A stretch of 36,310 bases of DNA from a virus (IMGVR_UViG_3300037452_000114:1-36310), one strand, 5' to 3'; counted from the stretch's first letter, positions 4,240-35,247 are shown. Translations and numbers: made by a program. Notes: a model not told the origin generated them from the sequence alone.

Positions 4240-4702
4240 TCTGGTTTGGAAGGCTGACGATTGGTTCCAGCGTCAGGAAGTTGCATTACGCGGTGAGCGG
4301 GTTTCTGTTCATTCTAGTCACTCGCCACTAGCCACTAAGGGGGCATATGAAAGCAACGATGGAGAGCACCACGAAAACGCTGGTTTTGAACGGGCTGAAC
4401 CTGCGCGTCTGGGAAGGCGTGACGGAGAAGGGGATACGGTTTGTAGCCCTAGTGAATCGCTTGCAAAGCGCGGACGCCGAACAAGAGCGTTTGCTGATTG
4501 GCGAAACGACCGCGAAACCGCCGAAGGAGCCGGAACGGGCGACGGCGGGCGCGCTGGAGCGTCTGGGAATCGTGACCGGCGTCCCCGAAGGCTACGCGCC
4601 AAAACCGGAGCCTCCGACTTCGACCAGCGCATAGTGGCCCGCCGCGGCGCGTTCGCCGGGATGGTGCTGGCCAAGGCGCAGCCGATGACGGGTGACCTGT
4701 GA
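4187..4702 (+). CDS. Possible small basic protein whose frame runs under the next gene
   Basis: 171 aa, with an excellent GGAGGG six bases before ATG, inside the 3' end of the previous gene. The first 45 residues (MKALKRWMWKQFLRIGHDLV...) look like a real amphipathic basic protein. From about 4330 the frame crosses a heptamer array and becomes Arg/Gly/Ala-rich, like an out-of-frame reading of the gene at 4347. It ends in a GTGA overlap with the gene at 4699, which argues for real translation. Either a long true overlap or a protein that lost its stop. Confidence 0.4.
   Translation: MKALKRWMWKQFLRIGHDLVWKADDWFQRQEVALRGERVSVHSSHSPLATKGAYESNDGEHHENAGFERAEPARLGRRDGEGDTVCSPSESLAKRGRRTRAFADWRNDRETAEGAGTGDGGRAGASGNRDRRPRRLRAKTGASDFDQRIVARRGAFAGMVLAKAQPMTGDL
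4313..4338 (-). repeat. GTGRYTN heptamer array
   Basis: Minus-strand units GTGGCTA GTGGCGA GTGACTA, ending just before the Shine-Dalgarno of the gene at 4347. Confidence 0.7.
4347..4634 (+). CDS. Hypothetical protein
   Basis: 95 aa, with AAGGGGG just before ATG. The sequence has a balanced composition (LVLNGLNLRVWEGVTEKG) and a Pro-rich C-terminus, and looks more natural than the overlapping +2 frame. No family recognised. It lies wholly inside the 171-aa reading frame at 4187-4702; which frame is used over this stretch is unresolved. Confidence 0.6.
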   Translation: MKATMESTTKTLVLNGLNLRVWEGVTEKGIRFVALVNRLQSADAEQERLLIGETTAKPPKEPERATAGALERLGIVTGVPEGYAPKPEPPTSTSA

Positions 4703-4974
4703 AAATCTGGAAATACCAATTCGGCGCGCCGTCAATGGTTTGCCAAATTCCCAAGGGCGCAGAGATTCTCTGCGTGCAAGTGCAAGCGGGAAAGGCGTGC
4801 CTGTGGGCGATCGTCGATGCTTTCGCTCCACTGGAGAAGCGCGTCTTTCAGATTTACGAAACGGGAAGCGAAATCCCCTCTGGAAAGTACAATTACATCG
4901 GCACGTTCCAGACGTGCGAGGAACCGAGTCGATTGGTTGCTTGGCATGTGTTCGAGGTTTTGAACGGCCACTAG
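4699..4974 (+). CDS. DUF7352-like small protein
   Basis: 91 aa with a GTG start that overlaps the preceding stop as GTGA. The order KIWKYQF, IPKGAEILCVQVQAGKACLW, an aromatic middle, IGTFQ and WHVFEV matches a compact beta-rich family found in phages and bacteria that I remember as DUF7352. Function unknown. It sits among small accessory genes of the rightward block. Family membership is by motif order only. Confidence 0.8.
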   Translation: MKIWKYQFGAPSMVCQIPKGAEILCVQVQAGKACLWAIVDAFAPLEKRVFQIYETGSEIPSGKYNYIGTFQTCEEPSRLVAWHVFEVLNGH

Positions 4975-4994
4975 TCACTAACCACTAGCCACTG
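4967..4994 (-). repeat. GTGRYTN heptamer array
   Basis: Minus-strand units GTGGCTA GTGGTTA GTGACTA GTGG. It overlaps the stop codon of the gene ending at 4974 and abuts the GGAGG of the next gene. Confidence 0.8.
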
Positions 4995-5007
4995 GAGGTT
5001 TTAATTT

Positions 5008-6530: not shown

Positions 6531-6820
6531 TGAATTGGTACGACCAAGGTCTGGCAGCAATCGAAACTGCAAAGCAGATTTTGCCTACCGCGCGAATGAC
6601 TGCGATTGTCCGATTGTACTCCGTGGCGATGGTTTTCTATCGGCATCCGATCGGAGATCGCGCATTGGATGAATTACGCAACATAATCGGCGTGGACGAG
6701 CTGAACGCTTTGTGTTTTCTGTGTGGATTTTCAACGGGCACGATGGACCCTGCTCGATGGGCAGAATTGGCTTGTATGACTAATCACGAATCGCGAGTCA
6801 CGAGTCACGAATCACTATGA
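6530..6820 (+). CDS. Hypothetical helical protein with a repeat-derived tail
   Basis: 96 aa from ATG 6530, with GGGGGAAG upstream. Helical body (AAIETAKQILP, ALDELRNIIGVDELNALCF). The last dozen residues (TNHESRVTSHESL) are translated from a heptamer array and nearly match the repeat-derived stretch TKHETRITDHDS in the gene at 5689. Its stop overlaps the ATPase start (ATGA), so the two are co-translated. Function unknown. Confidence 0.65.
   Translation: MNWYDQGLAAIETAKQILPTARMTAIVRLYSVAMVFYRHPIGDRALDELRNIIGVDELNALCFLCGFSTGTMDPARWAELACMTNHESRVTSHESL
6778..6816 (-). repeat. GTGRYTN heptamer array, partly coding
   Basis: Five units (reverse complement of CACGAAT CGCGAGT CACGAGT CACGAAT CAC) encode the tail of the upstream protein and occupy the ribosome-binding region of the ATPase gene. 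Confidence 0.8.
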
Positions 6821-21649: not shown

Positions 21650-24064
21650 TTAATCTGCCATACAAATTACTTTCAAAACATCGTTTGCCACAAATGCTGC
21701 GGGCGCTGTGACATCGCTAAAATTTGTAATTGTCACAGATGTGGTGCTCTCTGCCCCTGTTTGTCTTTGCATGGAAACAGTTGTTGATTGCGTAGTGATG
21801 TCACTTGCCGCGCAATTCCATCCCGTTGTGGCTGCTGGCATGGTGACTGTGCAGGCCGAACCTGGCGTTGTGCCGACGCCAATCTTGAATGCTGCCGTTC
21901 CGTTGTTGGCAGTAATAGAAGCAGCAGCGCCGCCACATCCTCCAGCGGCAATTGTTGGTGCGGTAAGTGAAATAAGTTTATTTCCATTCGCATTCGCGAG
22001 GCTGTCAGTGAAAAACAATTGAAATCCGGCAGTAATGTTACCGCTAGTGGTAAGTGAGCCAGCACTGTTTACTTTGAGTAAGGAAGCTCCTCCATTTGCA
22101 TGGAAATCTATGAAGTTTCCACCAAATCCACTAACTGAATTGATACCCATATAAGTACCTGATGTGTTCCAAGTTGCAGGAGCCGCCCCTCCATTTTGAT
22201 AAAACAACGGCGTTGACGTTGTTCCCGTCCCAGAGAACGGCGTGCCGGTCATATTCAATGCCGGCAATGACGCCGCCCCAGCCACCGGCAACGTAAGGTA
22301 TCCGGCCGGCTGTATGTTCCCTACTTTATCCACAGTGAATTGGCTGGTACCCCCCACAAGTAAATTCATCAACAATGATCCAGCAGCCGAAGATGTGTTC
22401 GTGACATTCTCCACGATGCCCTGGCCAGTAAGCCCCGCATTGTTCCACGTGGTTTCGACCTGCAAGGCCGGAAAAGCTACTGTACCTGTCACAGAGCCTT
22501 GGACGATTTCCAATGGTGTAGATGTGGATGCCGTAGCCGTGGAAAGTGAAACCAACGCCTGATTTGCCAGGAAGCCAGTCAGTGTGCCACCTGTGGCTGC
22601 CGAGGTTTCTCCAAACGCCATCCCATCCTGCGCATCGGTAGTTTGTGCCCAGTTCCAAGTCTGAGGATTGTTGCCGTTGGCGATGGTGTTCGATCCCGTC
22701 GCCGCCGTGATCGCGGATAGCGCCGCTCCTGAACTGCACGCTTGAAAATTCACAGGAGCCACGGCTGCGGACACCGTTCCGATCACCATACACTGCCCGG
22801 TGGTGGGCGCAGTGCTAGAAAACTGCAGGGCGTAGGCCGTGAACGCCGCTGTAGACGGACCCATGATGTTGAACGTGTTCGCCGCTGGCGTTACAGCCGT
22901 GGTGTTGCCAACAAGTGAGATATTTCCAGGGTGGACGCCATCAGGCCCAGTTCTGATGCCGCCAGCGCCCGTATAGGACAAGAGCGTGCCATTGTCTACC
23001 AGAAGCGTGTCCCAAGTGGATTGGCAGCTTCCTCCAGATGGGGCTGCGGACTTCAGAAATGTGCCATCCGTTGCCGATGTCGTGGGCAGAAGGATCGTGC
23101 AGGGAGTTCCGGCGACGGCCGCTATTCCGATGGCCGCAGCACCTGAAGTAGCCCCATTCATCGTTAAAGTGTCCGAAGTAAAGACGAAATTTCCGAAACC
23201 TGCGCCAGACTGCAGAATCGTAACAGATTGATCCGCCGCGCAAGTGGTACAAGTGGCTGAAATAAACGGAGTCCCATGTATGTTAAGATCAAACGTGTCT
23301 GCGCCCGCCGCTGCCGGTCCGAAAAAATGCGTTACTGCAGAAGAAACGCGAATGTCTAAATTCCCAGCTATTCCGCCGCCTACATAAATATCTTGCGTGC
23401 CGGCTACATCGGTAAACTGAAAATCAGCGCTGCCACTGATGGTGTTCGGCGCTGATCCTACAGCGATTTGACCAGATGCGATGCTTCCGGCGATCGTAGC
23501 CGAGCTGGTGTTGCACGTGGGGCAGGAAAGGGTTCCCGTGGCGATGATTGGATTGGGCGTTGCCACGATGGGGGACGTGGCCGAGATGCTGGTGACAGTG
23601 CCCGATCCGCTGCCGGCGAAATTGGTCATCTTTGGCGCCAAAGCGTTCAACGAAGTACTGATATCGACGGGAGAACTACCGCTGATCGTGGTACCCGTAC
23701 TGGTAAAAGTGAAGGTCTGCCCGCCGGTGCCTAGGGGAGCCTCGATCCCGCCTTGAGGGGAATTGATAGTGATCCGCCATTGCGGGCTGCCGGGAGTGAT
23801 CATAGTCACATCGCCAAAATTGGCGATGAATTTCCCTGTCGAATCGAGCGTCACCGGGCCAACTTGCCCGGAATACGGCGCGCCATTCAGCGTGTATCCG
23901 CCCGATGCGCCAGGTACTAGGACCGCGCTCATGGTCCCGCCTGCGTAGGGGATGCCGTTAGAGTCATGAACTGTGGCCGTCACGGTTGTAAATTGGGCGT
24001 GCGCAGCGGGAACAAAAAGAAACGCCCCGGCGACCGCCAGGGCGACACCGAAAAATTTTCGCAT
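21650..24064 (-). CDS. Large exported fibre-like protein
   Basis: 804 aa from ATG 24064, with GGAGGG directly upstream (an earlier ATG at 24118 has no ribosome site and overlaps the previous gene). Signal peptide FFGVALAVAGAFLFVPAAHA, then AQFTTVTATVHDSNGIPYAGG, a start typical of Acidobacteriota exported proteins. The rest is Gly/Ser/Thr/Ala-rich and repetitive, with fibre-like pieces (GSGTVTSISATSPIVATPNP) and a C-terminal domain (SITANNGTAAFKIGVGTTPG) that recurs in similar proteins. Probably a receptor-binding fibre or surface protein. A Sec signal on a phage fibre is unusual. Confidence 0.75.
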   Translation of the reverse strand: MRKFFGVALAVAGAFLFVPAAHAQFTTVTATVHDSNGIPYAGGTMSAVLVPGASGGYTLNGAPYSGQVGPVTLDSTGKFIANFGDVTMITPGSPQWRITINSPQGGIEAPLGTGGQTFTFTSTGTTISGSSPVDISTSLNALAPKMTNFAGSGSGTVTSISATSPIVATPNPIIATGTLSCPTCNTSSATIAGSIASGQIAVGSAPNTISGSADFQFTDVAGTQDIYVGGGIAGNLDIRVSSAVTHFFGPAAAGADTFDLNIHGTPFISATCTTCAADQSVTILQSGAGFGNFVFTSDTLTMNGATSGAAAIGIAAVAGTPCTILLPTTSATDGTFLKSAAPSGGSCQSTWDTLLVDNGTLLSYTGAGGIRTGPDGVHPGNISLVGNTTAVTPAANTFNIMGPSTAAFTAYALQFSSTAPTTGQCMVIGTVSAAVAPVNFQACSSGAALSAITAATGSNTIANGNNPQTWNWAQTTDAQDGMAFGETSAATGGTLTGFLANQALVSLSTATASTSTPLEIVQGSVTGTVAFPALQVETTWNNAGLTGQGIVENVTNTSSAAGSLLMNLLVGGTSQFTVDKVGNIQPAGYLTLPVAGAASLPALNMTGTPFSGTGTTSTPLFYQNGGAAPATWNTSGTYMGINSVSGFGGNFIDFHANGGASLLKVNSAGSLTTSGNITAGFQLFFTDSLANANGNKLISLTAPTIAAGGCGGAAASITANNGTAAFKIGVGTTPGSACTVTMPAATTGWNCAASDITTQSTTVSMQRQTGAESTTSVTITNFSDVTAPAAFVANDVLKVICMAD

Positions 24065-24073
24065 TTTCCCTCC

Positions 24074-24092
24074 GACGCACTCCCTGTGCGTC
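24074..24092 (-). promoter_or_regulatory. Leader hairpin, GUGCG family, copy 1
   Basis: A perfect 7-bp stem GACGCAC/GTGCGTC with a 5-nt loop (RNA loop AGGGA), then GGAGGG and ATG 24064. It lies in the 40-bp gap between the two large exported-protein genes. Confidence 0.65.
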
Positions 24093-24104
24093 CTCTTCCC
24101 TTCC

Positions 24105-25259
24105 CTACTGGAATCCAACGGTCAAATCCATCGCCGCGCTGGCCTTCACGCAAATCCCGTTTGTAAAAAATACGTCATAAATTTCTGGCGCGGCTGGAAA
24201 CGTAGCCGTTGCCGTGATAACCGAAACCACGTTCGTCGATGGAGTAGCGGTGCAAGCTGCGATTCCTAAGTCGAAAAGCGTCACCGTCCCAACCGCTGGA
24301 GTGCCGATCACTACGGTATGGACTAGCCCAGGTGTCGCTTTGACGGCCGTCGCAGTAGTGCCGGTGATATGGAAGTAACTTCCGAGAACTGGATTCGTCA
24401 ATCCCGGCGGAAAGAAAAGATAATCCAGGGCAGCCGATCCAGCTCCCGTAGTTCCGGCGGTGTAGATGACTTGAATCAGTCCGCACGGAAAACCGCCCAC
24501 TGAAAAAGTCTGTATAGCCGTTGAATTCGCGATGTTATAGGTTTCCGCCGTGTAGGTGTTATTTACTCCGTTGGCCACGCAATTCACGGCGATCGTCGAT
24601 CCGGCAATCGCTGCTGTGGTGTACTGGAAAACCAGACTTCCGTTCGTAGTTCCAAACGGAGGAACGATAAACTGACTAGTGAACGAAGTTCCTTCGTTCT
24701 GGCCGGCAAAAATAGGTTTATCGACTTGCGCGCTCAGATACGTTCCCGCGTTCACATTGGAAATCGCTTGCCCGCCGCTGTAACTCAACGTGAAAGTTCC
24801 GCCGGAACAAAGCACCACGACTTGAACTGTCGGGAAATAGCCGGTGCCTGTGACGCTGGGAGACGCTCCGGAAACGCCCGATCCAAAGGCCACATCCGAA
24901 ATGGTGAAAAGGTTCCCGGAGTTATCGATTCCCTGAATTTTCATGTTCAGGAACGTATTCACGTTACTTAAGGCGATGGTTGCGTAGTGCTGCGTTTGAT
25001 TTCGATTGTTCACCGGAAAGATTTGCGCGACTCCGGTGCAAGCTGTGGCAGTTGCTAGCGTTTGTTGAATAGGGACGAGAGACACCGGAGCCTGAGCCTT
25101 GGCCGACGCTGCGGCGAGCGCGCAAAGGATGAAAACCGTCAGCTTGGCCAGGCGCTTTTTCAGCGAGGGAAGGAATTGCTTCGGCGTTTTCCTGTTGGCG
25201 ATGGCCTTACGTAAACCTTGAATCTGTTTAGCCTTCGGAATGTTCATCTTTCGAGCCAT
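24105..25259 (-). CDS. Exported beta-rich protein, possible spike
   Basis: 384 aa; ATG immediately follows the previous TAA. The basic N-terminus (KAKQIQGLRKAIANRK) is followed by a hydrophobic export segment (LTVFILCALAAASAKAQ, about 39-55), an unusually long n-region for a signal peptide. The mature part is Thr/Gly/Val-rich beta sequence with scattered cysteines. Placed between capsid-like and fibre-like genes; a virion-surface or spike protein is plausible. No family recognised. Confidence 0.7.
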   Translation of the reverse strand: MARKMNIPKAKQIQGLRKAIANRKTPKQFLPSLKKRLAKLTVFILCALAAASAKAQAPVSLVPIQQTLATATACTGVAQIFPVNNRNQTQHYATIALSNVNTFLNMKIQGIDNSGNLFTISDVAFGSGVSGASPSVTGTGYFPTVQVVVLCSGGTFTLSYSGGQAISNVNAGTYLSAQVDKPIFAGQNEGTSFTSQFIVPPFGTTNGSLVFQYTTAAIAGSTIAVNCVANGVNNTYTAETYNIANSTAIQTFSVGGFPCGLIQVIYTAGTTGAGSAALDYLFFPPGLTNPVLGSYFHITGTTATAVKATPGLVHTVVIGTPAVGTVTLFDLGIAACTATPSTNVVSVITATATFPAAPEIYDVFFTNGICVKASAAMDLTVGFQ

Positions 25260-25418
25260 TTACTTTTTCTCCGGTGGAGTGCCGTGCGTCACGTTGACCA
25301 CCACATACGGTTTCACGTCCAGCACTAGAATTTCCTTGCACTCAAGGCACTGATAGAGGTTCGTATGGTCAATGGGATCCTCCAGGCGCGAGAGATGATT
25401 GTGAATGCACTCTTCCAT
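25260..25418 (-). CDS. 52-aa Cys/His small protein
   Basis: Starts at ATG 25418 with AGGCGG upstream, eight bases after the previous stop; its TAA directly abuts the next ATG. Residues C4, H6, H8 and CLEC (24-27) suggest one zinc site. The remainder is a compact beta segment (EILVLDVKPYVVVNV). Good spacing on both sides supports it. Function unknown. Confidence 0.7.
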   Translation of the reverse strand: MEECIHNHLSRLEDPIDHTNLYQCLECKEILVLDVKPYVVVNVTHGTPPEKK

Positions 25419-25425
25419 CGGCCGC

Positions 25426-26139
25426 CTACCACGCTACCGGATTGTCCGACGCGTCGAATTGATCGTCCCAGGTGCGCGGATAGAAATAGCCGCTCAGAAG
25501 CGCGCCGGCATTCACGCCGGTAGGCAAAGCGTTGTTGCGCACTACCCACTGAATTACGTCGTTTTCAAAAATGCGAATGCCGGAAATACGCGAGGGATTA
25601 TTGATCAGCCCGAGCGAGGCCAGCACTTTTTCGTAATTTCTTTCCGCGTTGCCGCCGGTATACACGCCCGCCGGTGGATTGCGGACGATCTGCCACACGG
25701 CATCCCCAGAGAAATCCGCCCAAGCGCCGCCCACGATCACGTTGGCAATCCACTTGATCACGCCGTTTCTGCCCGGCGGACAGGTCACTTGGGCGACTAC
25801 CGTAAAAACCGTGGCGCTGATGGCCGGAAGCGCCACGCCTGCCGTGTTGCGAAACGATTCCGAATCCGGCGGCTCGATCAGCCAGGGCGCGGAAATCAGC
25901 CGCGTGGCGCGCTGGATTTGCTGCAAGACGCTTTGCGTATCTTGAATCGCGGCGATGGTGGGATCGGTCGAAACCGGCTCCGTGGGCGGCGGGCGCAGGA
26001 TCAACTTCGGCGCCATGCTGCGATCTGCGTGCAGCTTGTAGGGCCAGGTCGATCCCCGAATGGACGATGCGGCCGCGTCCGTGATGTTCGGTTGTCCCGA
26101 CGCTTCCGAAGGTCCGGTGTCTAGTTTGTCATACGCCAT
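25426..26139 (-). CDS. Beta-rich virion-type protein
   Basis: 237 aa from ATG 26139 (GTG 26157 also possible). The N-terminal 90 residues are Pro-rich and extended. From residue about 95 the pattern is a beta-sandwich: TVFTVVAQVTCPPGRNGVIKW, ANVIVGGAW, WQIVRN, IRIFENDVIQWVVRNNA, ending AGALLSGYFYPR. This strand rhythm is what I would expect of a jelly-roll or spike domain. Flanked by other beta-rich genes, so a capsid, vertex or spike component is likely; unproven. Confidence 0.7.
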   Translation of the reverse strand: MAYDKLDTGPSEASGQPNITDAAASSIRGSTWPYKLHADRSMAPKLILRPPPTEPVSTDPTIAAIQDTQSVLQQIQRATRLISAPWLIEPPDSESFRNTAGVALPAISATVFTVVAQVTCPPGRNGVIKWIANVIVGGAWADFSGDAVWQIVRNPPAGVYTGGNAERNYEKVLASLGLINNPSRISGIRIFENDVIQWVVRNNALPTGVNAGALLSGYFYPRTWDDQFDASDNPVAW

Positions 26140-26263
26140 CGGGGTTTCCCCAATCACTTTGGTTGAAGCATTTCGGGCACGAACTTTCTAAAACCAATCC
26201 AGGGAGCCATCGCCATTTGCGATGGACAATCAAGCACCAAAAGAATCTGAACCAGAGTTTCAT
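26129..26263 (-). CDS. Possible 44-aa zinc-knuckle protein
   Basis: ATG 26263 to TGA 26129, overlapping the start of the next gene by 11 bases. A Trp/Arg-rich N-terminus (MKLWFRFFWCLIVHRKWRW) is followed by CPKC. The start codon is at the edge of a heptamer array and lacks a good Shine-Dalgarno. Confidence 0.35.
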   Translation of the reverse strand: MKLWFRFFWCLIVHRKWRWLPGLVLESSCPKCFNQSDWGNPDGV

Positions 26264-26293
26264 TAGTCACCAATCACTAATCACCAGCCACTG
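26263..26293 (-). repeat. GTGRYTN heptamer array
   Basis: Minus-strand GTGGCTG GTGATTA GTGATTG GTGACTA, running directly into ATG 26263. Confidence 0.75.
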
Positions 26294-26298
26294 TCTTT

Positions 26299-26802
26299 TC
26301 ACTGCCTCCACCACGTCGAATATCCGAACATGCACAGGTCCACGATGTTAGTGGTGCTGCCGCTGAGATTTTGAATCTTGCAGACTACCGGCGAACCCGC
26401 GGCGATGAAGTGCGGGATGCGCACTAGGCCGGGCTCTTGGGCGATGGGCGCGAAATTGGATTGATTCTGCCCGTACTTGGAATATTTGTAGGCGCCTTCC
26501 TCTTCGGTGATCTGAAAGCGGAAGCTGCCTTGATTGCCGATGCTGGCCACAGACGCGCGGCCCATTACGGCCACGAGCCAAAAATCCTCCGTCACCGTGA
26601 TGCGCGTCAAATCAGTTTGCCCAGCAGTGAGCGACAATTCCGGGAATTGGTACCAGAATAAATGCGCGCTGTGCAGGGAGAGCCTCACCCACTGCGGCAG
26701 CGTCCACGCCGCCGACGCCAACTTCCGGCGATTCTGCCAGGCGCCCAGCGTGGGATTCATCGGCGCGCCCGGCACTCGTCCTTGTATCCACGGGTTGATC
26801 AT
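26299..26802 (-). CDS. Candidate single jelly-roll capsid or spike protein A
   Basis: 167 aa. A basic helical N-terminus (about 1-45) is followed by about eight short strands: LFWYQFPELSLT, RITVTEDFWLVAVMGRAS, SFRFQITEEE, LVRIPHFIAAGSPVVCKIQN, TNIVDLCMFGYSTWW. The motif order (early V-x-x-D-F-W-L, late 'x-N-x-V-x-L-x-x-F-G-Y') is shared with the next upstream gene (26867-27352), suggesting paralogy. A pair of single jelly-roll proteins is the capsid plan of P23-77-type phages; that parallel is inference. A hairpin sits six bases before the start codon. Confidence 0.7.
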   Translation of the reverse strand: MINPWIQGRVPGAPMNPTLGAWQNRRKLASAAWTLPQWVRLSLHSAHLFWYQFPELSLTAGQTDLTRITVTEDFWLVAVMGRASVASIGNQGSFRFQITEEEGAYKYSKYGQNQSNFAPIAQEPGLVRIPHFIAAGSPVVCKIQNLSGSTTNIVDLCMFGYSTWWRQ

Positions 26803-26808
26803 TTTCTG

Positions 26809-26829
26809 TCGCGCACTCTATGTGCGCGA
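26809..26829 (-). promoter_or_regulatory. Leader hairpin, GUGCG family, copy 2
   Basis: A perfect 8-bp stem TCGCGCAC/GTGCGCGA, RNA loop AUAGA, six bases before ATG 26802. A 20-bp core is identical to the copy at 27362. No Shine-Dalgarno fits between hairpin and ATG. Confidence 0.75.
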
Positions 26830-26842
26830 TTCCGCCTTTCAC

Positions 26843-26872
26843 AAATTACGAATCACTACTCACGAATCACGA
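26843..26872 (-). repeat. GTGRYTN heptamer array
   Basis: Minus-strand GTGATTC GTGAGTA GTGATTC GTAATTT, spanning the end of the upstream gene and the gap before the hairpin. Confidence 0.7.
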
Positions 26873-27352
26873 TGGAGAAGGCAACGCTCCGAGCTGCGCG
26901 GCCATCGCTGCCGGGTACAGTTTGTAGCCCCAGAAATCCACTTGCACGGTGTTCGCCGTGCCGCTCGTGTCAATCGTCGTGACCTTGTACGAGCGCTTTT
27001 TGGGCATGAGTTGAGGAATCAGTCCCGCCGGGAACGGCAGTTGCGCCGTGCCTACGAAATTGTCGAAATTCACCGGAGCGCTCTGCCAGGCCAGGCCGCC
27101 CGCGCCGCCTTCCGTCACTTGAATGCTGAGGGCGTTGCTGGTGCGGCTGCCGATCAGCATCAAAAGCTGGAAATCGGCATCGCTGTCAATCTGGAACGAT
27201 TGCGCCTGCGTGTCGTTCCCGGCGTGCGTCAGATTGACGATGTAGTGAAACAATTTGGCGATGTAAAGCTGGCCGCCCAGTTCCATGATTTGCGGATCGG
27301 CTTGCAGCGCATTCATTTGATCCTGCGTGAGTGCCGGCACTTGCGAACTCAT
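26867..27352 (-). CDS. Candidate single jelly-roll capsid or spike protein B
   Basis: 161 aa. A helical N-terminus (TQDQMNALQADPQIM) precedes a beta-rich domain: FQIDSDADFQLLMLIGSRTS, LSIQVTEGGAGG, an NFDNFVGTAQLPFPAGL turn, YKVTTIDTSG and NTVQVDFWGYKLYP. The pattern 'D-F-x-L-L ... G-T-A-x-x-P-F ... S-G-x-A-N-x-V-x-x-x-F-x-G-Y' recurs in small structural-looking phage proteins I have seen, and parallels protein A. A capsid, vertex or spike role is likely, but the fold needs confirmation. Confidence 0.7.
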   Translation of the reverse strand: MSSQVPALTQDQMNALQADPQIMELGGQLYIAKLFHYIVNLTHAGNDTQAQSFQIDSDADFQLLMLIGSRTSNALSIQVTEGGAGGLAWQSAPVNFDNFVGTAQLPFPAGLIPQLMPKKRSYKVTTIDTSGTANTVQVDFWGYKLYPAAMAAQLGALPSPS

Positions 27353-27361
27353 GTTTTTTAA

Positions 27362-27381
27362 TCGCGCACTCTATGTGCGCG
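27362..27381 (-). promoter_or_regulatory. Leader hairpin, GUGCG family, copy 3
   Basis: Stem CGCGCAC/GTGCGCG, RNA loop AUAGA, nine bases before ATG 27352; the intervening TTAAAAAAC contains no Shine-Dalgarno. The rest of the gap up to 27509 is GC-rich with further weak inverted repeats and no gene. Confidence 0.75.
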
Positions 27382-27509
27382 CCTCGCGGCCTCTTGGGCC
27401 GTTCCCCGCCATCCAGCGTACTGCGTGCGGGCCGCCACGCCTTCGCGTCTACGGCCCGCGATCGAGTTGTTCCGGCATCCGCGCATCGAATGTCGGAGGT
27501 CCGCACGCG

Positions 27510-28274
27510 CTACAGAACGGCTCGTGCCTTCTGCCCTTCCAGATACACCCACGCGTTGATGCCCGTGCCGATGGGCACGGTATTGTTGGCGTTGGTGGTG
27601 AAGCCCGTGGCTTGCGCCCAGGCCGCCAGCGTGGGATCGACTTCCACTTTGAACGCCTGTTGCTGGGCGATCAAAATGCCGTCGATTTCCGGGAACTGGT
27701 CGACGCCGGGAGTGCCTGGGCATCCGGGGTCCGTCAAGCGGAATCCCTGGTGCTCGTTGGGCAACCCGTTGCCTACCGGCCCGATGATGGTGTTGGCCGC
27801 CGTGGCGCCGAATTGCTGCGCCCAGATGCCGCCGCCCGCCGGAAGTTTTAGGAAGTGCGCGACCACGAAGAACGATTTCGTGGAGATGAAAAAGTTCACG
27901 ATGGTCTGGCTTCCGAACTTGATGGCGTCCGTCTGGTTGCACAGATTGTCCAACACGCAGGTGATCCCGCGAACGAGCATCCGTTCGGGGGCCTGCAACT
28001 GGTTCGGCTGCACCATGCTGGTCATCTGCAGGGTTTTCGCTACCGTGGCGCCGCCGGTGATGGTGAAATTGTTGTTCTGTACGATCGAGAACAGCGTTTG
28101 CTTCACTACCGCCGTGGAAACCGCCACGCCGTAATAATCCCATTCCGGCTGAACCACGAAATCTCCCAGCCCTGCCGCCAGCATGTTTTTCAAGCGGAAG
28201 CGGGGCCGGCCGATTTCATGCGCCGAAATTTCCGGCAAATGAGCGAATCTCTTTACCTTGCTAAGAAGTTGCAT
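27510..28274 (-). CDS. Candidate major capsid protein, beta-rich
   Basis: 254 aa with AGGAG before ATG. After a basic N-terminus come regularly spaced strands: TLFSIVQNNNFTIT, LQMTSMVQPNQL, ERMLVRGITCVLDN, QTIVNFFISTKSFFVVAHFL then KLPAGGG, a variable loop, AFKVEVDP and a final INAWVYLEGQKARAVL. The 'P-E-R-M-L-V-R-x-I ... F-x-I ... L-P-A-G-G' run recalls putative jelly-roll capsid proteins of unclassified phages. It is the largest non-exported beta protein in the structural cluster. Assignment is tentative; a minor capsid role is the main alternative. Confidence 0.65.
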   Translation of the reverse strand: MQLLSKVKRFAHLPEISAHEIGRPRFRLKNMLAAGLGDFVVQPEWDYYGVAVSTAVVKQTLFSIVQNNNFTITGGATVAKTLQMTSMVQPNQLQAPERMLVRGITCVLDNLCNQTDAIKFGSQTIVNFFISTKSFFVVAHFLKLPAGGGIWAQQFGATAANTIIGPVGNGLPNEHQGFRLTDPGCPGTPGVDQFPEIDGILIAQQQAFKVEVDPTLAAWAQATGFTTNANNTVPIGTGINAWVYLEGQKARAVL

Positions 28275-28357: not shown

Positions 28358-28858
28358 TTACGCCACATACTTCGAATACGCGCGGCGCGGTCCAAGCATG
28401 CCCATCGCTGCGGCCGCCGCGGGTGTTACCGCTGCGCCCTTGGATGGCCCGGTCTTGGAAGCGGACGCGGCGATCGCCGGCGCGCCCGGCGAATACGCCG
28501 GCGTCGGGATCGTGAAGTTGAGCGGGCCGTACTGGCCGAGCGAAGCGGTGAGCAGCGTTTTGCCCGTGACGATGGTGATCGCGCGGGAAACGGCTTGCAC
28601 CGATCCGCCGATGAGCACGCCTTCCGAAAGGTCGTTGGACATGCCTTTCAAAAGATACGCCCCGCCGAATCCGACCACGAGCGCCATGCCCACGCCGGCC
28701 CATCCCGTATTGAGGCTCGGGGAGACCATGTTGGGAATGGCGGACGCGGCGATCGCGCCGCCCAAAGCGCCGGCAACCTTCACCGCGAGTTGATTGATGC
28801 TGCCCGCGGCAAAGGGATTGCGGCGCCGATGGTGACGATGATGATGATGTCTTGCCAT
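28358..28858 (-). CDS. His/Arg-rich membrane protein of the virion cluster
   Basis: 166 aa from ATG 28858, with a perfect AAGGAGG. It opens MARHHHHRHHRRRNPF, a natural poly-His/Arg tract suited to binding nucleic acid or metal. Then a hydrophobic Gly/Ala-rich helix pair (LAVKVAGALGGAIAASAIP, NTGWAGVGMALVVGFGGAYL) and a third amphipathic segment; the last third is Pro/Ala-rich. An RRRNP N-terminus followed by an NTGW-[AM]-G motif and membrane helices recurs, as I remember it, in metagenomic phage proteins. It could link the genome to an internal membrane. Function unproven. Confidence 0.75.
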   Translation of the reverse strand: MARHHHHRHHRRRNPFAAGSINQLAVKVAGALGGAIAASAIPNMVSPSLNTGWAGVGMALVVGFGGAYLLKGMSNDLSEGVLIGGSVQAVSRAITIVTGKTLLTASLGQYGPLNFTIPTPAYSPGAPAIAASASKTGPSKGAAVTPAAAAAMGMLGPRRAYSKYVA

Positions 28859-28957
28859 AAAAAATCCTCCTTCCCCGCCGTTGTGGGTTCTTCCCGCGTG
28901 ACGCCGGCGCGCGTCATACGTCGGATTGACGAGCCGAACGATCATCTTTTATTTCGC

Positions 28958-29002
28958 AAAAAGCGCCCCGGTTTCACGACGCACTCGCCGTGCGAGCCGG
29001 GG
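28958..29002 (-). terminator. Hairpin with T-run, possible late-operon attenuator
   Basis: Outer stem CCCCGG/CCGGGG encloses an inner CGCAC-tcgcc-GTGCG stem of the same type as the GUGCG leader hairpins. On the minus strand it is followed by CGC and five T. It lies just after the stop at 29010, about 100 bases before the next gene, so it may partly terminate or set expression ahead of the capsid genes. Confidence 0.6.
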
Positions 29003-29009
29003 ACTTTTG

Positions 29010-29741
29010 CTATTGACCTCCGGCTCCCAAATTCACCAGCGGTTCGACGGAGGAATCGCGTCGCACCGCGTTCAAATCCATTTGATCCCCTAAATCATAC
29101 CGGCCGCCCTTGAAAAACATTTCGCCGGTGTAGGGATCGACGAGCAAAGCCATTTTCGTACCGTCAAAACTGGAGAGCGAAGAAATCGGCATCTTGTAGC
29201 TGCCCAAAGCGCCCCAGGTCGCGCCGCGTCCCGCCGTCACGCACACAATTTGCGAGACGGGATGGAAAACCAAGAAATTCAGAAAGCGCGCCGAAGCGAT
29301 TTCCGCGAGCAGTTGCTTGAACTTCGGAGCCTCGTGCTCTTTTTGTCCCGGCGCAAGATGCGATTGCCCTTCCTGATCGACATCGTAGGGATTCTGCGCG
29401 GGCCGTGACGGATCGGGAACGTCTGGCAAGCGAGCCAGGCCGCGGCGAATCGGCAGCCGCGAAACGATCAGCAAATCCCCCTCGGGGATGGATCGCGCAA
29501 TCGACGGGCCGAAGTCCGGCCAGTAGATGCGCCGCCCCACTTTTGCCGCCTTGTACAGCGGCATGCGGCAATCGGCGTCCGGCTCAAAATAAATCGTTTC
29601 GATCATGGCGAACACGTTGTACCCGCGCCCCGGCCCGGCGGCCGTGCGCTCGCGCTTGATTTTCAAGGAAAAATCCAAATCCTTCGCTGCGCCGAGGACG
29701 ATGTTGGCCTTGCTGATTCCGTGTTCAGTTCCCGCGAGCAT
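29010..29741 (-). CDS. Hypothetical virion-cluster protein
   Basis: 243 aa with AGGAG before ATG. Mixed alpha/beta; no membrane segment. Visible pieces: FDLS-like strand DLDFSLKIKRERTAAGPGRG, LLIVSRLPIRRGL, a helical middle (KFKQLLAEIASARFLNFLVF) and a C-terminal beta region (TKMALLVDPYTGEMFFKGG). No family recognised. Its place just before the hairpin and capsid candidates suggests a structural or assembly role. Confidence 0.7.
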   Translation of the reverse strand: MLAGTEHGISKANIVLGAAKDLDFSLKIKRERTAAGPGRGYNVFAMIETIYFEPDADCRMPLYKAAKVGRRIYWPDFGPSIARSIPEGDLLIVSRLPIRRGLARLPDVPDPSRPAQNPYDVDQEGQSHLAPGQKEHEAPKFKQLLAEIASARFLNFLVFHPVSQIVCVTAGRGATWGALGSYKMPISSLSSFDGTKMALLVDPYTGEMFFKGGRYDLGDQMDLNAVRRDSSVEPLVNLGAGGQ

Positions 29742-30614: not shown

Positions 30615-30660
30615 CTTTACCGCGAAAGCGCCCCTTACCGGGGCCTTTCGCTCTCTCCTT
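30615..30660 (-). promoter_or_regulatory. Leader hairpin, GGYAA-loop family, copy 2, between Shine-Dalgarno and start
   Basis: On the minus strand AAGGAGAG (30660-30653) is followed by a 12-bp stem (GCGAAAG plus GCCCC, one bulge, 30622-30651) with loop GGTAA, then seven bases and ATG 30614. The hairpin separates the ribosome site from the start and would bring them together when folded. Confidence 0.75.
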
Positions 30661-33401: not shown

Positions 33402-33433
33402 GGCTTTTTCCGAGGCCCCTTACCGGGGCCTTA
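33402..33433 (-). promoter_or_regulatory. Leader hairpin, GGYAA-loop family, copy 3
   Basis: A perfect 7-bp stem AGGCCCC/GGGGCCT (33413-33431), RNA loop GGUAA, 11 bases before ATG 33401. The upstream GGGAGG lies on the far side of the hairpin, as at 30615. Confidence 0.7.
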
Positions 33434-34786: not shown

Positions 34787-35247
34787 CCGCCCATTGCCTC
34801 TTTGTATTTTTCGCGGACATCCGGACTTAATTCTGAAGCCTTCTTTTTCATCGCTTCCGCCGAAACACTGGACACTAACTTGCCAAGCATCGAAGGAGAA
34901 AACAGGTCAATCCGTTTTGCTAAATCGATGAAAAGCTGCATCACGTGTTGTTTACAAGCATCGCAAGAGACCACGTGATCTTTCCAACGATCATGAATCA
35001 TGATGTGCTGTTCCGTGCCCGTAGTGTGGTCGTGGATTTTTTCCAAGGATTCAGGACAAACGATTCTGAGCCGCAGAAGTTCGTCCGGTTCAATACGATT
35101 CCGGTCAGCGGAAATCAGTTGAGAGGTTATGTTGAATTCGTCGCTCACGCCCAAAAATCCCCTGTCCGAGTATTCCCAGATGCGCCGCAAAAATCGCGTC
35201 CACCAGAATCCGAGGCGCGCTGTCCGGCGGATCGTCACCATAGTCAT
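34783..35247 (-). CDS. Helical protein with HxxxCxxC zinc motif
   Basis: 154 aa from ATG 35247, which overlaps the transglutaminase stop (ATGA). Basic aromatic N-terminus (RLGFWWTRFLRRIWEYS). Residues about 95-108 read DHVVSCDACKQHV, an H-x4-C-x2-C-x2-H zinc-finger pattern like that of anti-sigma and similar proteins. The C-terminal helix is charged (SPDVREKYKEAM). A regulatory role is possible but speculative. Confidence 0.65.
   Translation of the reverse strand: MTMVTIRRTARLGFWWTRFLRRIWEYSDRGFLGVSDEFNITSQLISADRNRIEPDELLRLRIVCPESLEKIHDHTTGTEQHIMIHDRWKDHVVSCDACKQHVMQLFIDLAKRIDLFSPSMLGKLVSSVSAEAMKKKASELSPDVREKYKEAMGG

Follow-up and report, generated by a model that had tools for sequence, protein, structure and literature searches.

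Introduction

In bacteriophage T4, genes 25 and 38 each have a hairpin between the Shine-Dalgarno (SD) sequence and the start codon. According to PMC3014915, which cites Nivinskas 1999 and Malys & Nivinskas 2009, the hairpin shortens the SD-AUG spacing from 22 to 5 nucleotides (nt) in gene 38 and from 27 to 11 nt in gene 25, and breaking the hairpin lowers translation in both cases. As far as we found, SD-AUG hairpins were previously known from isolated genes such as these two, and our search of the open-access literature found no account of SD-AUG hairpins that recur as a family. Here we describe a family of small hairpins with a 5-nt AUNGA loop in the virus record IMGVR_UViG_3300037452_000114:1-36310 (36,310 bases; "the window" hereafter means this whole stretch) and in its relatives, and we argue that it probably represents a ribosome-binding site split by a hairpin, as in T4 genes 25 and 38, but occurring as a repeated and portable family.

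RNA-phage coat operators are phage translational operators, and they form a second group for comparison. The operator hairpin of T4 gp43 is a further phage translational operator (PMC3014915). Among published lineage-specific repeats at start codons, the nearest are the short SAS and ESAS repeats described from cluster K mycobacteriophages and from a Microbacterium phage cluster (EF) (PMC3203893, PMC7302621, PMC12699233); the 13-bp SAS motif is asymmetric and includes the SD, ESAS remains with its gene family, and the authors saw little support for an mRNA hairpin in ESAS. In cluster O, palindromes show no close association with start codons (PMC4351075).

Results

A hairpin family with a conserved loop in eleven related genomes

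The genes around the hairpins lie on the minus strand of the window. Ten relatives of 34-37 kb each were recovered via the protein encoded at 27510-28274 and a P-loop ATPase, so that eleven genomes including the window were compared (labelled G001 and so on where a label is needed). A preliminary description of the window had reported CGCAC/GTGCG stems with loops ending in GA in front of the genes at 24064, 26802 and 27352, and this was confirmed on the minus strand. In total, the window has four CGCAC-N5-GTGCG stems (24076-24090, 26812-26826, 27365-27379 and 28980-28994), which read CGCAC-NNNGA-GTGCG on the minus (gene) strand. The pattern GCACNNNGAGTGC was found there in 4 copies with 0 mismatches, all on the minus strand, and in none with 1 mismatch. 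It was present in all ten relatives, giving 23 copies in the eleven genomes (4 in the window and 19 in the relatives) against 0.8 expected from first-order Markov resampling over the same genomes; as a pattern control, GCACNNNGAGTGC read backwards gave 4 matches in the ten relatives.

Nineteen of the 23 sites have the loop AUAGA, AUGGA, AUCGA or AGGGA, and the other four have the loop GGCGA, which belongs to a composite hairpin treated below. A relaxed search added one member with an altered stem (G003:4555), bringing the AUNGA family to 20. The element thus defined consists of a 6-8 bp stem and the conserved 5-nt AUNGA loop, and it is spread over 8 different genes in the 11 genomes, with up to four copies per genome. 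A covariance search, which the preliminary description had suggested as a check, separated the family clearly, with all 20 members scoring at least 28 bits and the next score being 18.6. When 2.9 million viral contigs and 84,980 prokaryote genomes were scanned, the only matches outside this lineage were single ones that lacked the flanking context, and an origin of the hairpin in a host or in another phage was rejected on this ground. Rfam gave 0 window matches at its curated threshold. The window members and their neighbouring features are listed in Table 1.

Table 1. Hairpins and SD-like sequences in the window, with SD energies calculated against the canonical anti-SD.
Feature	Position	Strand	Score or remark
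AUNGA hairpin TCGCGCAC-ATAGA-GTGCGCGA, 8 bp	26809..26829	-	35 bits; helix probability 1.00
SD-like AAAGGCGGA, directly 5' of the 26809..26829 hairpin	26831..26839	-	-7.0 kcal/mol vs anti-SD; none in the tail between stem and ATG
AUNGA hairpin CGCGCAC-ATAGA-GTGCGCG, 7 bp	27363..27381	-	33 bits; helix probability 0.99
SD-like CGAGG, directly 5' of the 27363..27381 hairpin	27382..27386	-	-5.8 kcal/mol; tail ATTAAAAAAC without SD
AUNGA hairpin GACGCAC-AGGGA-GTGCGTC, 7 bp	24074..24092	-	28.3 bits
SD GGAGGG, between hairpin and ATG of the 24064 gene	24068..24073	-	-9.8 kcal/mol; within the 9-nt tail
GGYAA hairpin GCGAAAGGCCCC-GGTAA-GGGGCGCTTTCGC, with AAAGGAGAGA 5' and GGTAAAG-ATG 3' (gene 30614-29874)	30622..30651	-	5' flank -8.9, tail -2.8
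Composite hairpin, GGYAA-type outer stem (GCAAAAGTCCCC / GGGGCGCTTTTTGC), loop holding GGCTCGCACGGCGAGTGCG	28956..29010	-	sequence, relatives

Three other identities of the AUNGA hairpin were considered and rejected. An intrinsic terminator, a GC-rich stem with a T run after it, does not fit, as the tails are A-rich and the three window hairpins were absent from the terminator scan. CsrA/RsmA binding hairpins carry GGA in the loop; GGA is not conserved in the AUNGA family, and the loops AUAGA and AUCGA lack it. A short upstream open reading frame starting from the loop or stem, judged by eye, was dismissed because the loop triplets are AUA, AUG, AUC and AGG and the frame to the start codon varies.

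Stem covariation and predicted folding

For each of stem pairs 1 and 6-8 (counted from the loop), there is at least one sequence in which both bases are exchanged; pairs 2-5 are invariant. The covariation score was 0.173 compared with 0.074 in shuffles, 0 of 500 shuffles scored as high, and sliding the partner columns abolished the signal; since the shuffles ignore relatedness, the score is support for the stem and not proof. Pair 6 is complementary as GC or AU in 17 of 18 sequences (13.9 in shuffles, p=0.0006). The MSVLKK gene provides the clearest example, at the loop-closing pair, which is C-G in G004 and G008 (GCGCAC...GUGCGC) and U-A in G003 (GCGCAU-AUGGA-AUGCGC), with the loop type kept. 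In sequence context, the predicted probability of the core helix averaged 0.83 and was at least 0.7 at 16 of 19 sites. These results point to an intervening hairpin that would indeed form and be selectively kept.

Orientation, placement and Shine-Dalgarno sequences

All 20 AUNGA hairpins are sense-oriented. With start codons assigned by conservation, the distance from hairpin to start is 6-15 nt at 17 of the 20 sites; at the remaining three it is longer, with 24 nt in G006, 50 nt at G003:24873, and about 35 nt at G008:12539 when measured to the conserved ATG, another ATG being closer. In the window, the hairpins end 6, 10 and 9 nt before the ATG of genes 26802-26299 (protein D), 27352-26867 (protein E) and 24064-21650 (protein A), respectively. 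The 26802 and 27352 sites have the 20-nt sequence CGCGCACATAGAGTGCGCGA in common, as noticed before, but the gap of 6-9 nt given for these two sites needed correction to 6 and 10 nt.

We also examined SD sequences, using a threshold of -4 kcal/mol and assuming the canonical anti-SD for the host. Among 19 sites, an SD was found only 5' of the hairpin at 9, only 3' at 4, on both sides at 6 and on neither at 0, and the nine sites that have none in the tail all have a 5' SD of -5.8 to -9.0 kcal/mol. The view that no SD fits before the three window genes is therefore not tenable, as the 24064 gene has one in its tail and the other two have one 5' of the stem (Table 1). The 24064 gene has in addition a second purine-rich, SD-like stretch 5' of the stem (-7.1 kcal/mol). 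We propose that AAAGGCGGA would serve as the 5' half of such a site, the ribosome-binding site being split by the hairpin.

On average, the 14 nt adjoining the stem on its 5' side scored -5.8 kcal/mol, whereas random 14-mers gave -1.9 and sequence matched in position upstream of control genes gave -2.1, an enrichment of p ~1e-4 when each of the 8 genes was counted once. When the hairpin was removed in silico, the best SD became better by at least 1 kcal/mol at 13 of 19 sites and worse at 0 (mean -5.5 to -8.3), whereas a corresponding cut, applied to 112 control genes, made it worse in 44% and better in 13%. Note that part of the gain upon removal comes from SDs that span the new junction, so that the test on the 5' flank alone is the cleaner one. 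At the nine sites with a 5' SD only, the spacing from SD core to AUG is 27-34 nt in the linear sequence and would be 8-16 nt if the hairpin is folded.

A perfect inverted repeat near gene starts would also fit a DNA-level element, such as an operator bound by a dimeric regulator or a promoter component. We regard this as very improbable, given that the fixed loop is asymmetric with GA always on the sense side, that all 20 copies are in sense orientation, and that the variable outer pairs covary, which an operator would not need. Furthermore, a scan limited to sigma-70-like promoters found none close to the window hairpins on the strand of the genes.

Turnover of hairpins between genomes

The set of genes that carry AUNGA hairpins differs between genomes. 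For the 26802 gene, the AUNGA hairpin is found in G000, G002, G009 and G010, a hairpin of another family (GGYAA, see below) in G004 and G005, and neither in the other five. For the 24064 gene, AUNGA is found in G000, G001, G002 and G006, GGYAA in G003, G004 and G007, and a variant in G010. In G001, the nearest relative, the products of the 26802 and 27352 genes show 100% and 99% identity to their window counterparts, and neither gene has a hairpin, the intergenic sequence being different. Every genome keeps the AUNGA family somewhere, G001 with a single copy. The AUNGA element, as far as these eleven sequences tell, is portable: within the phage group it comes and goes, and hairpins of other families (GGYAA and CTGGGCT/ACTTG) take its place at the same genes.

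Two claims of the preliminary description have to be revised in this light. It had named loss of the hairpins in close relatives that keep the genes as refuting its proposal of coordinated post-transcriptional control of virion genes, and such loss was seen for two of the three window genes in G001. By that standard a fixed regulon is refuted, as G001 keeps both proteins without the hairpins; the family itself survives, being kept in every genome. The restriction to virion genes is not supported either, since the carrier set differs from genome to genome and extends beyond the presumed virion block: two carriers, the MKAT gene and the gene at window 54, belong to a plus-strand block with a DnaB-like helicase. 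What stands of the proposal is that a role of the hairpins, if any, would be in translation initiation, as judged from sense orientation, placement, covariation and the lack of a coinciding sigma-70-like promoter or T-run terminator.

Such turnover could be expected if the hairpins were REP- or MITE-like DNA elements, mobile palindromes spreading in intergenic gaps with no role in expression; such elements would occur in both orientations, at varied distances, and with a mobilising transposase. Up to four copies per genome, positions that differ between relatives, exchange at the same gene and confinement to one lineage are all in line with this explanation. However, the 20 sense-oriented copies, 17 of them ending 6-15 nt before a start codon, are not, and insertion between SD and AUG should be harmful unless folding makes it tolerable. 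The variable outer pairs also tend to remain complementary, and no transposase was seen among the genes examined, although no search was aimed at transposases. We consider mobile palindromes improbable on balance.

GGYAA, ACTTG and composite hairpins

The GGYAA family (GCGAAAGGCCCC-GGUAA-GGGGCGCUUUCGC) has 29 copies in the 11 genomes by the pattern used, which gave no copy in G009, and within the viral collection it is limited to this phage lineage. Its GNYAA pentaloop resembles that of P22 boxB. The copy at 30622..30651 shows the same split arrangement as the AUNGA sites, in another family; a further window copy lies at 33413-33431 (minus strand), and there are more in the relatives. Two layouts were observed. 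In the first (SD-hairpin-GGTAAAN-ATG), the tail is short (1-9 nt, mostly GGTAAAN) and a strong SD lies 5' of the hairpin (AGGAGAGA and similar, -6.4 to -10.2 kcal/mol). In the second (stop codon-hairpin-GGTAAGGAAGTC-ATG), the tail is longer and often contains the SD (GGTAAGGAAGTC), and the hairpin often directly follows the previous stop codon. A third family was noticed in G009 (L169/L170), where CGGG(T)-CTGGGCT..ACTTG..AGCCCAG occurs in four sense copies before start codons, at 34792 (plus) and 27873, 20915 and 10389 (minus); their inner pairs differ, with compensating stem changes.

The preliminary description had also counted the stem near 28980 as a member. The stem exists, with the loop GGCGA, but we keep it apart from the AUNGA family because its form is different: a fixed 19-mer, GGCTCGCACGGCGAGTGCG (28980-28998), is nested in a GGYAA-type hairpin. 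The same 19-mer occurs once in G003 and twice in G008, and its tip has an alternative pairing of similar energy, CTCGC-ACG-GCGAG (-6.0 vs -6.8 kcal/mol). The composite hairpin directly follows the stop codon of gene 29741-29010, with GGAGG of GAGCCGGAGGTCAATA on its 5' side and the conserved MIVRLVNP ATG (28945) 10 nt on its 3' side; at the orthologous G001 site, which has the same flank, the 5' SD energy is -10.2 kcal/mol.

As a speculative extension that we think rather unlikely, the AUNGA, GGYAA and ACTTG hairpins might be interchangeable cassettes of a swappable translation-control code, in which each loop would have its own reading factor, able to fold or unfold split sites, and cassette exchange would rewire the control groups of genes.

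The phage lineage and neighbouring features

Most of the 11 genomes have a direct end overlap of 77-127 bases, suggesting that they are complete circular assemblies. More distant relatives were sought by aligning the ATPase and the protein encoded at 27510-28274, which returned the same ten records and one fragment only, and neither of the two proteins tried had a match in GenBank phages. The lineage appears to be an orphan one. The window encodes the DnaB-like helicase (1696), a P-loop ATPase without family match (6817), a fused helicase-DNA methylase (10255), an SLT transglycosylase (16417) and a transglutaminase-like protein (35244), and no terminase or known capsid was recognised among the window proteins scanned. 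Genes in the block around the hairpins had no PHROG matches and no Pfam matches above threshold; the 26802 protein has a beta-rich predicted fold of low confidence (pLDDT 59) with unspecific structural matches, and the 27510-28274 protein gave no usable predicted fold (pLDDT 28). For these reasons the label of virion genes for this block is plausible only. The product of 21650-24064 (minus) is large, and its first residues resemble a signal peptide (MRKFFGVALAVAGAFLFVPAAHAQF), which is unusual among structural genes of phages.

Other features of the window were observed. Gene 28358-28945 (minus) has a possible dual start: besides 28945, where the conserved MIVRLVNPTYDARRR begins, 28858 could serve, as it follows a strong GGAAGGAGG. 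A conserved palindromic element, GCGGGCCGTAGACGCGAAGGCGTGGCGGCCCGCACGCAGTACGC, lies at about 27405-27470 (minus) between genes 27510-28274 and 26867-27352 and is present in most relatives. Intergenic linkers with words such as CACTAGTCACTAATCAC, GTGATTCGTGA and TTGGAGGTTGGA were found at window 4315-4345, 4965-5000, 6780-6815, 26840-26870 and 1740-1825, and in the relatives such linkers fill the same gaps as hairpins.

Discussion

We interpret the AUNGA hairpins as putative RNA structural elements of translation initiation regions, for which a split ribosome-binding site would be the simplest account. At about half of the sites, including 26802 and 27352, the hairpin lies between SD and AUG; once folded, it would remove 17-21 nt of the path, restore a normal SD-AUG spacing and so rejoin a split ribosome-binding site, and the ribosome would use the 5' SD through the folded hairpin. 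At the remaining sites the SD is in the tail, some of them having another SD on the 5' side of the stem as well, and there the hairpin would simply border the ribosome-binding site.

Several observations weigh against a hairpin-split site. The clean layout with a 5' SD only is found at 4 genes (D, E, MKAT and MANY), and at the four sites with an SD solely 3' of the hairpin a split site is not needed. In-context folding prefers a rival fold at G004:8997 (0.05), G003:24873 (0.12) and partly at G001:6961 (0.42). Four of the 8 stem pairs never vary and one varies once, so that they are little informative, and pairs 7-8 are often unpaired. The sites also share descent, the 20 sites representing 8 genes. 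Finally, a passive spacer leaves the conservation of the loop unexplained. The fixed loop may be read by some factor or may be kept for stability: a protein that reads the loop would explain both the constant loop and inner stem and the hairpins beside ordinary SDs, and a stable fold copied between genes might explain them too.

This bears on a translational operator, in which a phage or host RNA-binding protein would read the AUNGA loop on a GCAC/GUGC stem and block or open several ribosome-binding sites; this is the idea of the preliminary description freed of its limit to virion genes. The loop positions A, (U), G and A and the inner stem are fixed at 8 genes, in genomes whose proteins share as little as ~60% identity, and the outer stem varies with pairing partly kept; a passive spacer needs no such constancy, and operators of this kind typically sit at the ribosome-binding site. 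On the other hand, no candidate binding protein was identified, the set of carrier genes is not conserved, with G001 having a single copy, and families with other loops substitute at the same genes. We therefore treat the operator as a tentative possibility, not a likely one. It is compatible with a split ribosome-binding site and may coexist with it.

If the split-site interpretation is correct, this phage lineage would have a repeated, portable SD-AUG hairpin device with its own sequence families. Its natural variants in stem, loop and spacing, and its presence or absence at near-identical genes, would allow tests of how ribosomes bridge folded spacers. Scoring of SDs in the linear sequence misses split sites, which would affect the annotation of phage start codons.

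The AUNGA family resembles phage translational operators in the small size of the hairpin, its specific loop and its place at or close to the ribosome-binding site, but such operators usually have one target per protein, and the AUNGA family occurs at 8 genes, with no known binding protein. With SAS and ESAS it shares lineage-specific short repeats by many start codons, mostly in one orientation, absent or nearly so from hosts and suspected of a role in translation. Unlike them, it is a covarying hairpin (GCAC-NNNGA-GUGC) with the SD outside the motif and with gene placement that varies between relatives, so that it does not belong with SAS/ESAS. T4 genes 25 and 38 share with the AUNGA sites an SD too distant in the linear sequence, a hairpin between SD and AUG, a usable spacing once it is collapsed, and occurrence in close relatives only. 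Nine of the 19 AUNGA sites combine a distant SD, an intervening hairpin and a usable folded spacing. The T4 structures were demonstrated by mutation and probing, whereas the present phage group is known from sequence alone; the T4 cases are single-gene structures, whereas here one fixed-loop family is found at 8 genes in 11 genomes, turning over and interchangeable with other hairpin families.

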